A stretch of DNA of 57,717 nucleotides from Bacillota bacterium (lineage in GTDB: Bacteria; Bacillota; UBA5301), in contig JAAYHC010000073.1 in the NCBI GenBank assembly GCA_012735535.1, positions 1 to 57,717 of the forward strand. Direction: 5' to 3'. Both the position numbers and the translations under genes were made by a program. Below, piece after piece: positions 33,053-57,309 of this stretch. Positions within the stretch are counted from its first letter, which is position 1; every line of letters starts with the position of its first letter. The notes below the pieces were generated by a model. That model saw nothing but the letters and a program-made list of their open reading frames with translations, was not told the DNA's origin and searched no databases.

Positions 33053-33080
33053 AAAAAAAGCCTTCGTCTAAGGACGAAAG
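33053..33080 (-). terminator. T-box attenuator of valS
   Basis: 8-bp stem (33061-33068 with 33073-33080, one G-U) with a four-base loop, followed on the minus strand by a T run (33053-33060). It is the default OFF structure of the valS T-box; the 5' side competes with the antiterminator. Confidence 0.85.
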
Positions 33081-33300
33081 CAATTCGCGGTACCACCTTA
33101 GTTCGCCTCGTGGGCGCACTCTAGTGCGATTTAACGCATCGCGGTCGGCGGCAACTACTGCCGGTTCGCTGCCGCAGCTCCCGGGCGACTTCCTGTGATC
33201 AAACCGTAGCGGTCTTTCAGCCGGTGAACCGCCTCTCTGATCCGGTCGGCATCAACAGTACTACTCCCGTTCCTCGCCGATTAAAGCCTGCTGAGATTAG
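33053..33300 (-). promoter_or_regulatory. T-box riboswitch, valine type (GUC specifier)
   Basis: Leader RNA of about 250 nt before valS that binds uncharged tRNA-Val. The antiterminator bulge AGGTGGTACCGCG is at 33086-33098. Upstream features fit stem I: an AGTAGTA stretch near the base, an AGAGAG bulge, a GCTGAAAG distal element, and GGAA-GTC with GTC at 33187-33189 as the specifier codon (valine). The terminator at 33053-33080 completes the switch. Confidence 0.92.
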
Positions 33301-50179: not shown

Positions 50180-50254
50180 TGGAGCGGAAGACGGGACTTG
50201 AACCCGCGACCCCCACCTTGGCAAGGTGGTGTTCTACCACTGAACTACTTCCGC
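50180..50254 (-). tRNA. tRNA-Gly (anticodon GCC)
   Basis: Complete 75-nt cloverleaf with encoded CCA. Acceptor GCGGAAG/CTTCCGC, discriminator T, anticodon stem CACCT with loop containing GCC, T-arm GGTTCAAGTCC. It follows tRNA-Leu by 10 nt and shares its terminator. Confidence 0.97.
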
Positions 50255-50264
50255 CCGGTCTCTA

Positions 50265-50349
50265 TGGTGCGAGAGGGGGGAGTTGAACCCCCACGGTTTT
50301 ACCCGCTAGATCCTAAGTCTAGTGCGTCTGCCAATTCCGCCACTCTCGC
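50265..50349 (-). tRNA. tRNA-Leu (anticodon TAG)
   Basis: 85-nt class II tRNA with long variable arm and encoded CCA. Acceptor GCGAGAG/CTCTCGC, anticodon stem CTAGA with loop CTTAGGA, giving TAG (reads CUA and likely other CUN codons). Confidence 0.96.
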
Positions 50350-50363
50350 GAACCGCAGTCTTT

Positions 50364-50392
50364 ATGATAACACAGCTTACCGATTTGCGCAA
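50364..50392 (-). promoter_or_regulatory. Promoter of the tRNA-Leu/tRNA-Gly unit
   Basis: Minus-strand TTGCGC (50387-50392), 17-nt spacer, TATCAT (50364-50369), 14 nt before the tRNA. Its -10 neighbourhood (GTTATCATAA) matches that of the other tRNA promoter at 51031. Confidence 0.7.
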
Positions 50393-50409
50393 GAGTGACT
50401 TCGCAAGTC

Positions 50410-50625
50410 CTAGTAGAGCTCGATGACCTGGTATCCGGCATCCGCCAGCGCCTCCTGAAGGCGGCCGACCCCTATTTGTTCGGGATCATACCTGATTTCG
50501 GCAACCGCTTCCGCCAGATCGACAATAACCTGCTCGACCCCGGGCAGCTTTTTCAAGCGCCCTGCTAGGAGGATATTACTCTGTTGGTCGGAGGTCCCGG
50601 CAATCTTGAAGGTTACCTCTTGCAT
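50410..50625 (-). CDS. HMA-fold protein lacking the metal-binding cysteines
   Basis: 71-aa protein with the beta-alpha-beta-beta-alpha-beta pattern of heavy-metal-associated domains: LPGVEQVIVDLAEAVAEIRY and LQEALADAGYQVIEL align with the usual LPGV...A.V.YDP and ALxxAGY segments. The site that should read GMxCxxC is GTSDQQS, with no cysteine anywhere in the protein, so copper chaperone activity is unlikely. GGAGGGG precedes the ATG. It lies between two tRNA units; a weak TTATTA-N17-TATACT promoter is possible upstream. Function unknown. Confidence 0.75.
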   Translation of the reverse strand: MQEVTFKIAGTSDQQSNILLAGRLKKLPGVEQVIVDLAEAVAEIRYDPEQIGVGRLQEALADAGYQVIELY

Positions 50626-50689
50626 TAGTCCCCTCCGGTTCTTTGCACTTACCTCTTAGTATAACCCGGAAGCCGAGGAGTAATAACAA

Positions 50690-50723
50690 AGAATAGAAAG
50701 GACTTTCTGCCGGTAGAAAGTCC
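50690..50723 (-). terminator. Terminator of the tRNA-Pro/Arg/His unit
   Basis: Perfect 9-bp stem (50700-50708 with 50715-50723, loop of six), followed on the minus strand by TTTCTATTCTTTG. It lies just past tRNA-His. Confidence 0.75.
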
Positions 50724-50736
50724 CCTGAAAAATGTT

Positions 50737-50814
50737 TGGGGTGAGTGATGGGACTTGAACCCACGACCTCCAGGGCCACAACCTGGCGCTCTAACCGGCT
50801 GAGCTACACCCACC
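50737..50814 (-). tRNA. tRNA-His (anticodon GTG)
   Basis: 78 nt including encoded CCA and the extra 5' G (position -1, at 50814) facing C73, the identity element of tRNA-His. Anticodon stem CCAGG with loop TTGTGGC. Confidence 0.96.
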
Positions 50815-50829
50815 ATAGTTGACTGATAT

Positions 50830-50905
50830 TGGCGCGCCTGGTAGGAATCGAACCTACGGCCCACGGATTAGAAGTCCGTTGCTCTATCCCCTGAGCTACA
50901 GGCGC
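50830..50905 (-). tRNA. tRNA-Arg (anticodon TCT)
   Basis: 76-nt cloverleaf with CCA. Acceptor GCGCCTG/CAGGCGC, anticodon stem ACGGA with loop CTTCTAA. Reads AGA/AGG. Second of three tRNAs in the unit. Confidence 0.97.
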
Positions 50906-50911
50906 AGGAAA

Positions 50912-50988
<77 letters not shown>

Positions 50989-54639: not shown

Positions 54640-56778
54640 CTATTGTATTTGTATCACCTGAACCTTATCCACTATACCTGCCCCTGGTTTAACGGGGGTA
54701 ACTTGGAGCTGCTGCCAACTAAACTCTTCTTTATGCTCCGACCCGCTCTGAGAGGCACTGCCGGAGGTTGCCGGCGGAGCCAGAAACTCCTGAAGCCCTG
54801 GACCCGCACTTGTCGGGGCCAGCAATTCTCGATACTGCCACGTTGGGCCGGCGAAGTAAGCTACTAAACCCCTGAAGATCGCCTCGGCAGCCTTTTGCCT
54901 AAACGCAGGTTGCCCTAACAACTTCTCCTCGGCTCGATTACTGATGAAAGCGACCTCAGTTAAGACAGCCGGAACTGTGTTCTCCTTGAGCACCACAAAA
55001 TCCCGGTTTGGCCTGGGGGCGCGATTGCTCAGCTCTAAAGTCGTGAGCATCTCCCGCTGAATCAGAGTCGCTAATTCTTGCCCTTTGGGGTCGGCATAGT
55101 AGTAGTATGTCTCCGTACCGTTAGCCTCTTTGTTAACCGAAGAATTGACATGAATGCTGACAAAGACTTCGGCTCCGGTCCGCTCAGCCAAACAAGCTCG
55201 GTCGATCAGCGAGATGAAGGTGTCGTCTTCGCGGGAGAGTATTACTTCCGCACCCTGCTTTTCAAGCAAATCACGCAGGCGCAAAGCAATATCCAAGACG
55301 ACATCTTTTTCGCGCAAGCCGGTCCAGCCGATAGCACCGGGGTCTTGCCCGCCATGACCGGGGTCGATCAAGATCCGGTGGCCGGCTAAAGGCGATTCAT
55401 TCACAAGCACCCGGAGCCCCTGACTACTCGCGAGCACCTCGTGCCCCCGATAACCGCGCAGCCCAATCTGGACTTGCACCGCTGTCGGTGCGACCTGCAA
55501 CAGCTTAACATCGCTAACCGGTCCTTGTTCAAAGACCAATCTCGGTTGATCCGTCGCCAGTATGGCCGACGGAATGTCTACGAGAATCTGGGCGAGGTCG
55601 GGGAAATACTCGACCACATACTGGTCGATCCCTGATCCCTGAATCAGGAAGGCCAAGCGCCCATCTACCGGCGAGACCTGCACCCCGGTTATTTTCTTCA
55701 CCAGCTCAAAGAGTAATGAATTCGGGTCAGCGGTTTGCGCCAGCACCGTCCCGGCCGGATTGTTTAGCTCCAGGACTATCCGCACGATATGTGGCAAGAA
55801 TTGATTGACCCTGATTTTGTTGACCAAAGGATCATTGGGCAGTTCAAGCTCTTGTATCGCCGTCGCCAGCGTAGCTTTCTCAATATCGATGACCAAGCGC
55901 TCCGGATTCTGGAGACTGGTAACCGAGTAATGCAAAGGCCCCGAGCCTTTGATCTCTAGTTGGGCCTTGCCGAAAATTCGCTGGAAGGAGACGGCTTGCA
56001 CCTGCTTATATAACTGGATATCCAAGCCCTGGCCGTTCGGGGCCGGCAGCACCTCAAAACCAACGCTGCGGGCCAAATCGATAACCACCCGGGCGACATT
56101 AGGTCTAAACTGGTGCCAACGGATACCTAGAATCCCGGTTTCTACCGGTAACGAGCCGTCAAAATCGCCATGCAAGTCGATCTGCGTATCATACAAATCA
56201 ACGACGATACGATCCGGCGCAGCCAGTAAATAGGTTTCAAACCGCGGCAGGCCGGTTGTGCGGATGCTCACCACGGGCCGGCCTTGCTGGATCGTGGCAC
56301 TCAGCCCGGTCAGCAACTCGGTCGGAATTGACAGATCGATCCGGTCAGGTCTGATCTCCGTCTCGTAACCAAAAACCTCGGCGAGAAAGCTCAGGGGAAT
56401 CATCAACCGGTCGTTGACCAACTGCATGGGCTCCCTGAGAAAAAACTGGTTGGAGTTGACCAAAGCTACCGTCGCTCCGACTTGCAGATACGCAATTACG
56501 GAGGTGTCTTTGATCCGGACCGTTTTGGATTCGTCCAACCACCCGAGAGTCAACCCGGTCTGCTCCGCGAAGTCCCGTAAAGAGACGAGCCATTCCCCTT
56601 CGGTCTGCCCCGGTAAGAGAGCGACCGGATAAGCGTATCCGTTAATGTAAAAACCGATTTGGCTTTCTTCAGCTCGGGTGATTGGGGAAAGAACAACCCC
56701 CACTAAAAAGCAAAAAACTAGATACAGTGCTATTTTCTTACTATAACAGCTTCGGGAAGCCGCGACGGATCTGATCAC
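54640..56778 (-). CDS. Secreted N-acetylmuramoyl-L-alanine amidase (stalk-AMIN-amidase_3)
   Basis: 712-aa cell-wall hydrolase. A signal peptide/anchor (about 16-37) is followed by a copper-amine-oxidase-like stalk domain (about 40-150), at least two AMIN domains (about 155-265 and 270-370, with RIVVDLYDT and RLVIDIEKA) and another beta-rich region (about 380-455), then the zinc amidase_3 domain (about 465-650). Zinc and catalytic residues: DPGHGGQDPGA, the Glu in LREKDVVLD, SIHVNSS and TEVAFISN. The tail is low-complexity. GTG at 56778 is used because AGGAG lies 7 nt upstream; the TTG 56793 overlaps that site. Followed by murI-murD, 3 nt apart. Confidence 0.92.
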   Translation of the reverse strand: MIRSVAASRSCYSKKIALYLVFCFLVGVVLSPITRAEESQIGFYINGYAYPVALLPGQTEGEWLVSLRDFAEQTGLTLGWLDESKTVRIKDTSVIAYLQVGATVALVNSNQFFLREPMQLVNDRLMIPLSFLAEVFGYETEIRPDRIDLSIPTELLTGLSATIQQGRPVVSIRTTGLPRFETYLLAAPDRIVVDLYDTQIDLHGDFDGSLPVETGILGIRWHQFRPNVARVVIDLARSVGFEVLPAPNGQGLDIQLYKQVQAVSFQRIFGKAQLEIKGSGPLHYSVTSLQNPERLVIDIEKATLATAIQELELPNDPLVNKIRVNQFLPHIVRIVLELNNPAGTVLAQTADPNSLLFELVKKITGVQVSPVDGRLAFLIQGSGIDQYVVEYFPDLAQILVDIPSAILATDQPRLVFEQGPVSDVKLLQVAPTAVQVQIGLRGYRGHEVLASSQGLRVLVNESPLAGHRILIDPGHGGQDPGAIGWTGLREKDVVLDIALRLRDLLEKQGAEVILSREDDTFISLIDRACLAERTGAEVFVSIHVNSSVNKEANGTETYYYYADPKGQELATLIQREMLTTLELSNRAPRPNRDFVVLKENTVPAVLTEVAFISNRAEEKLLGQPAFRQKAAEAIFRGLVAYFAGPTWQYRELLAPTSAGPGLQEFLAPPATSGSASQSGSEHKEEFSWQQLQVTPVKPGAGIVDKVQVIQIQ

Positions 56779-56875
56779 ACTAACTCTCCTCAAGAGATTT
56801 ACAAGAGTAGTTTTCTACTCCCCGAGTGGTAATCCTCTACCTTTTGGCTTTGGTAAAAAACAGAAAAGAGGCCTG
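56779..56875 (-). other. Leader of the amidase gene
   Basis: No gene. On the minus strand it holds a T-rich run just after the repeat array (near 56850-56866), a small 6-bp hairpin (56805-56810 with 56815-56820) and the AGGAG site of the amidase. I could not identify a clear sigma-A promoter. Confidence 0.4.
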
Positions 56876-57187
56876 TAGTGGCCTGCGCTCCGGCTACCAT
56901 AGATCCCTACAGAACCCGCAACAACCTTTCGGCTGCTACAGACCCTTACGGAACCTATGACAACCTTTGCTCGACTACCACAGATTCCTGAGCAACCTGC
57001 AGCAATCTCACGACTGCTGCAGATCACCAGCTCGAGTAGCCTGCGGAACCGGTGATAGTCTTAACTCGGCTACCATCGATCTGGTCTGGAGCCTACTGCA
57101 ACCTTTCGGGCTGCAGTAAACCCGTGGCCGACCGATGATAACCTTCGCTCCGGCTATTATGGATCCCGCCGCGAACCCATAATAACC
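56876..57187 (-). repeat. Tandem array of ~42-nt imperfect hairpin repeats
   Basis: Seven successive hairpins plus an eighth half-unit; the AACC-like (GGCC or AGTC in two units) edge of each left arm recurs at 56883, 56926, 56965, 57007, 57060, 57103, 57143 and 57187 (steps 43, 39, 42, 53, 43, 40, 44). On the minus strand each unit reads stem-loop-stem: for example GTAGCAGCC-GAAA-GGTTGTTGC (56918-56939) and TGCAGCAGTC, GTGA loop, GATTGCTGCA (56998-57021). Stems of 8-10 bp differ between units but still pair, mostly with G-U rather than mismatches when read on the minus strand. Loops are purine-rich (GAAA, GTGA, CGAAA, GAGCAAA). Linkers often carry GGTTC. Steps that are not multiples of three argue against coding. 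Confidence 0.75.
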
Positions 57188-57309
57188 TTTGCTCGACCGA
57201 TACGCATCCGAAGTCTCGAACACGTATCGATCTTAGTCCGGTCACTACAAACCTCTTGCCCATAGCTTCTCCGCGCCGGCAGCCAATTATACATCGCTCG
57301 TGCAGAAAA

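Follow-up and report, generated by a model that had tools for sequence, protein, structure and literature searches.

A widespread structured RNA of spore-forming Bacillota with nine wobble-marked helices and a predicted forespore promoter

We describe a structured RNA, encoded on the minus strand of a 57,717-nt contig of a Bacillota bacterium (the whole stretch analysed, referred to here as the window), in which the long helices follow a single sequence template marked by G.U wobble pairs at fixed positions. That the element is a genuine RNA gene is close to certain. The reading that we favour for it, with a probability of about 0.6, is that of a structural RNA expressed in the forespore, whose helices would serve as equivalent docking sites.

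The RNA spans positions 57257 to 56866 of the minus strand (about 392 nt) and folds into a single closed multibranch domain, in which nine helices of about 15 bp (P1–P6 and P8–P10) are set on a multibranch core. The minimum free energy of the minus strand was −220.5 kcal/mol, as against −137.9 ± 5.1 kcal/mol in 100 dinucleotide shuffles (z = −16.3), while the fold of the plus strand was much weaker relative to its shuffles (z = −6.1). The preliminary description of this DNA had reported repeated stems of differing sequence and had assigned them to a minus-strand RNA, and on both points it agrees with these values, which lie far beyond chance. The closing stem P1 (17–18 bp) pairs 57257–57240 with 56883–56866. 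Five arms leave the core, of which P2 (57232–57195, 17 bp in the window) and P3 (57187–57152, 15 bp) are single helices, and the remaining three are of a two-helix type. The P4–P5 arm (57143–57068) consists of P4 (57143–57126 with 57086–57068) and P5 (57123–57109 with 57103–57089), the latter with the loop CGAAA. The P6–P8 arm (57060–56973) contains P6 (57060–57045 with 56988–56973), P7 (57041–57029), which is variable and weakly conserved with 61% of cells paired, and P8 (57028–57012 with 57007–56991), with the GNRA loop GTGA. The P9–P10 arm (56965–56892) is the best conserved portion of the RNA, and is formed by P9 (56965–56950 with 56907–56892) and P10 (56946–56931 with 56926–56911), with the GNRA loop GAAA.

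The locus therefore holds one domain closed by P1, rather than the seven separate hairpins proposed earlier. Three of the four hairpins singled out at that stage correspond to conserved helices, namely 56918–56939 (P10), 56998–57021 (P8) and 57095–57117 (P5), but the fourth (56956–56982) joins a strand of P6 to a strand of P9, and the conserved fold gives both strands other partners. A pairing of 57152–57162 with 57177–57187, thought to hint at alternative folds, is real and is the conserved helix P3 itself. A protein-coding reading of the element was also considered and dropped, since the overlapping open reading frames had no Pfam match, lengths were mixed modulo 3, and open stretches were barely longer than in shuffles.

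We then imposed the fold derived from the window alone on an alignment of 17 homologues. Pairing was retained in 95.2% of 2531 cells, compared with 77.5% in shuffles and 29–43% in slid versions. Double-change (compensatory) cells numbered 475 against 144 in shuffles, two-sided changes were seen at 114 of the 154 pairs, and none of 500 shuffles reached any of the covariation measures. RNAalifold returned 148 pairs, 107 of them with compensatory changes. A covarying, structured minus-strand RNA had been suspected in the preliminary description, which had named a test for significant covariation and a covariance-model search of related genomes as checks; the first bears the suspicion out, and the second recovered homologues in many genomes of the phylum, as detailed below.

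Placed in a common register, helices P1–P6 and P8–P10 all conform to G1-R2-U3-Y4-N5..N10-G11-G12-N13-U14-C15, and their sequences otherwise differ. G.U wobbles occurred at positions 3, 12 and 14 in 76%, 88% and 76% of cells in the 17 sequences, and in 31% or less elsewhere. The register was replicated in 41 sequences outside its definition, with 75%, 88% and 82% at the same positions and 1–28% elsewhere. A wobble can pair in the transcript of one strand and not in that of the other, so that the register fixes the minus strand as the one transcribed. Moreover, U3 and U14 share a strand and are separated by 11 bp, roughly one turn of an A-form helix, which places the marked minor grooves on one side. 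The period of about 42 nt reported earlier is indeed present, and has its source in this template of about 15 nt, which every helix strand follows. To our knowledge, there is no precedent in natural RNA for one helix template that recurs with its wobble pairs at fixed positions.

Upstream of P1, on the minus strand, lies a predicted promoter of the forespore sigma-F/G type. Its −35 element GTATA (57288–57292) and −10 element GGAGAAGCTA (57263–57272) form GTATA-N15-GGAGAAGCTA, which scores 10 of 11 against the Bacillus sigma-F/G consensus used for scoring, and the same motif, including the −10 box, stands in register upstream of nearly all of 60 homologues. In 58 of these, the −10 box of GYATA-N14/17-GGNNANANTA ends 6–12 nt before P1. 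The score was perfect (11/11) in 12 of the 60 and at least 10 in 33, against a background of 0.03% perfect and about 1% at 10 or more in dinucleotide shuffles, and of 0.2% and 1.3%, respectively, in 1891 windows taken upstream of neighbouring genes. In some lineages the −35 box matches GYATA poorly. A sigma-A pattern was not enriched upstream of the RNA in the 60 homologues, and many SASP genes of the same genomes, which served as a positive control, carried GYATA-N14/15-..ATACTA. A forespore-regulon motif (GYATA-N14-17-GGNNANANTA/CATNNTA) is thus present at the correct distance from the 5′ end, and we consider forespore control by sigma-F and/or sigma-G, as predicted from this motif, to be likely. 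The consensus sequences of SigF and SigG overlap in C. difficile (PMC7438776). At the other end, a U-rich tract directly behind P1 (56855–56867, minus strand) is likely to be an intrinsic terminator, judged by its sequence. Six or more T within the first 12 nt past the RNA were seen in 26 of 60 homologues, where a control position gave 12 of 60, and a separate hairpin with a T-run lay within 60 nt past the RNA in 24 of 60.

To survey the distribution of the RNA, a covariance model built on its 3′ 112 nt was run against 399 genomes, all from the phylum of the window. The RNA was found in 170 of these genomes, about 40% of those sampled, and in 118 of 267 genera; carriers include Carboxydocella thermautotrophica and metagenome-assembled genomes of Desulfotomaculum, Desulforudis and Syntrophomonas. 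Weak matches, on inspection, were mostly divergent full-length members with 36–64% GC, although some folded unclearly. Elements extracted from relatives adopt the same domain fold, and the length of 60 copies ranged from 353 to 445 nt, indicating a size and architecture that are fixed across the phylum. When 60 relatives were searched at the DNA level, 24 additional genomes had matches, which mostly covered the element and in a few cases lay in flanking DNA alone. Among 84,980 species scanned with one strict pattern, a search of low sensitivity, all records that matched were labelled Bacillota or Clostridia.

The copies also differed in ways that bear on their history. One locus (L014, in genome G017) shares 94% identity with the window in P9–P10 and 49–71% elsewhere, and another (L025, in G005) has the reverse pattern, with 70–73% in P2, P3 and P6–P8 and 55% in P9–P10; these identities suggest that arms may have been exchanged among lineages. 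A short form of about 130 nt in G042 (L031) retains only P1 and the P9–P10 arm and is probably a deletion derivative; a full-length copy (L118, in G250) exists in the same genus. At two loci (L084 in G079 and L131 in G299) a single contig carries two full-length copies, 2.6 kb and 6.7 kb apart. In several contigs of metagenome-assembled genomes (for example L035, L108, L115 and the window) the RNA is often no more than a few hundred bases from the contig end, perhaps as assemblers break at repeated helices. The patchy presence of the RNA is compatible with its gain and its loss.

Carriage of the RNA was associated with the capacity to form spores. SpoIVA, found in 335 of the 399 genomes, was encoded by 165 of the 170 carriers as against 170 of the 229 non-carriers (Fisher p = 4e-11, kinship ignored), and three of the five carriers in which it was not detected (G081, G125, G236, G284 and G333) are 61–80% complete. 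The two genomes searched from the window's own family (G001 and G002) encode SpoIVA and lack the RNA, indicating that the RNA is dispensable over evolutionary time. Half of the spore-formers are without it, and it is therefore not essential to sporulation. In one family (G049, G300 and G364) the RNA directly adjoins spoIVA in convergent orientation. The absence from Rfam 15 of an RNA of about 390 nt that is carried so widely, and nearly always by spore-formers, represents a sizeable gap.

Taken together, these observations lead us to propose that sigma-F and/or sigma-G would transcribe the RNA in the forespore from its own promoter, and that transcription would end at the U-tract or at the hairpin behind P1. 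The wobble-marked minor grooves on one side of the helices may constitute a docking face, which could be read by a dsRNA-binding protein, or by GNRA loops and A-rich linkers, whether from the same RNA molecule or from a neighbouring one. In the developing spore the RNA would then act as a stable multivalent scaffold, within an RNP or an RNA assembly, a role unlike that of an antisense sRNA or of a leader. The docking role, for which the wobble register is our evidence, is advanced tentatively, at somewhat under even odds. We hold to the same tentative degree the view that the RNA forms a new class among bacterial structural RNAs: its nine equal 15-bp helices, with three fixed wobbles each, would line up identical sites at which a spore dsRNA-binding protein could dock or self-assembly take place. 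With the wobble-marked template comes a sharp code that can be tested, whether it is read by a dsRNA-binding partner or in RNA self-assembly, and the role of a structural RNA inside the developing endospore becomes directly testable.

The fixed G.U pairs could instead be anti-determinants against RNase III or other nucleases and against DNA cruciforms, in which case the RNA would merely be very stable and its function would reside in loops or junctions. Such a role would suit the wobbles fixed at three positions in every helix, the fact that G.U pairs turn into mismatches once DNA forms a cruciform, and the much lower stability of the plus-strand fold. However, stability need not fix the same three positions in the same orientation in nine helices, and helices of about 15 bp are already below the length of about 22 bp that is usual for RNase III substrates. 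We consider this explanation unlikely.

Comparison with known RNAs raises a second possibility. Rfam 15 covariance models gave no match to the element at the gathering score, nor at E ≤ 10, so that at the curated score it falls in no Rfam 15 family, including GOLLD, ROOL, OLE and raiA; among 15 homologous loci the sole match was an unrelated c-di-GMP riboswitch. This strongly supports the preliminary description, which had seen no likeness to any CRISPR, terminator or riboswitch that it recognised. As a working likeness, the RNA appears most like the large ornate RNAs GOLLD, ROOL and OLE, which form homo-oligomers (PMC12286853) and are likewise large and intricately folded, stand as independent genes in bacteria and have functions that are poorly understood or unknown. 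Our RNA, at about 390 nt, is shorter than these, has no Rfam match and builds nine helices on one template behind a forespore-type promoter; a phage or prophage link of the GOLLD/ROOL kind was not seen, and searches of phage, plasmid and viral collections by exact patterns and blastn did not find it. An RNA-only homo-oligomer or cage, in which the minor grooves marked by wobbles receive GNRA loops and linkers from adjacent copies, would be in keeping with the two GNRA loops (P8 and P10) and with equal helices that share identical terminal motifs. Neither a pseudoknot nor an intermolecular pairing was identified, which together with the missing phage connection makes an RNA-only assembly as improbable, in our estimate, as the anti-determinant explanation.

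A regulatory sRNA that pairs with mRNAs in the forespore has a precedent in Bvs196, a Bacillus sRNA of 294 nt under sigma-F/G control that is reported to bind the spo0A and sspN-tlp mRNAs (PMC9147052). Bvs196 and CsfG resemble our RNA in being independent RNA genes of spore-formers, and the forespore-type promoter would fit such a function. Nevertheless, nearly every residue here lies in a helix, and the helices change freely in sequence while compensation keeps them paired. A long, conserved, single-stranded seed is not apparent, and the loops that are conserved are GNRA tetraloops; base pairing with mRNAs is thus a distinctly doubtful function. By description, Bvs196 is also set apart by its folding energy, as its consensus of 294 nt has a minimum free energy of about −82 kcal/mol, compared with −220 kcal/mol for about 392 nt here. 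raiA/ModT (RF03072) is, like our RNA, a conserved structured Bacillota ncRNA with a link to sporulation, its deletion causing a sporulation defect (PMC11706538), but it is about 200 nt long, differs in structure and is abundant in growing cells, whereas our RNA has a forespore-type promoter. Its own model found raiA in 47 of the 399 genomes and not in that of the window; the idea that raiA replaces our RNA in a complementary manner was dropped, as the two partly co-occur and raiA is absent from most genomes. The one-template helices and the forespore-type promoter set our RNA apart from the ornate RNAs, raiA/ModT and Bvs196 alike. We found no description of it in the open-access literature, although it may have been described elsewhere.

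Patchy distribution, including its lack in the two genomes searched from the same family, together with the apparent exchange of arms and the derivative in G042, might recall the expanded mobile palindrome considered in the preliminary description, that is, a repeat without host function. Yet the element is single-copy in the window's own genome, it had no match in the phage, plasmid and viral collections searched, its size is constant, gene order around it is kept within related genera (and only there), and covariation, promoter and wobble register are all under selection, making this reading very improbable. A CRISPR or tandem palindromic array was likewise rejected, the arms being diverged, their number fixed and the locus single in this genome.

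An amidase (wall hydrolase) gene lies downstream on the same strand in the window (54640–56793), from which a leader of a wall-hydrolase operon had been proposed. For the family overall, however, a cis-acting leader or riboswitch is refuted, since the RNA has no fixed place upstream of a co-oriented gene family, amidases do not recur as neighbours, and in 44 of the 56 loci scored the gene that follows runs antisense to the RNA. No neighbour was universal among the homologous loci, and a conserved neighbour gene as a partner was therefore dropped; the commonest neighbours, by inspection, resembled HD-domain and ABC-type proteins. With a predicted promoter of its own, a downstream gene that is usually antisense and no universal neighbour, the RNA is a free-standing gene. 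Rfam matches elsewhere in the window are ordinary, and comprise a T-box leader (33067–33283), an L21 leader (1071–1144) and a tRNA cluster (50183–50988).
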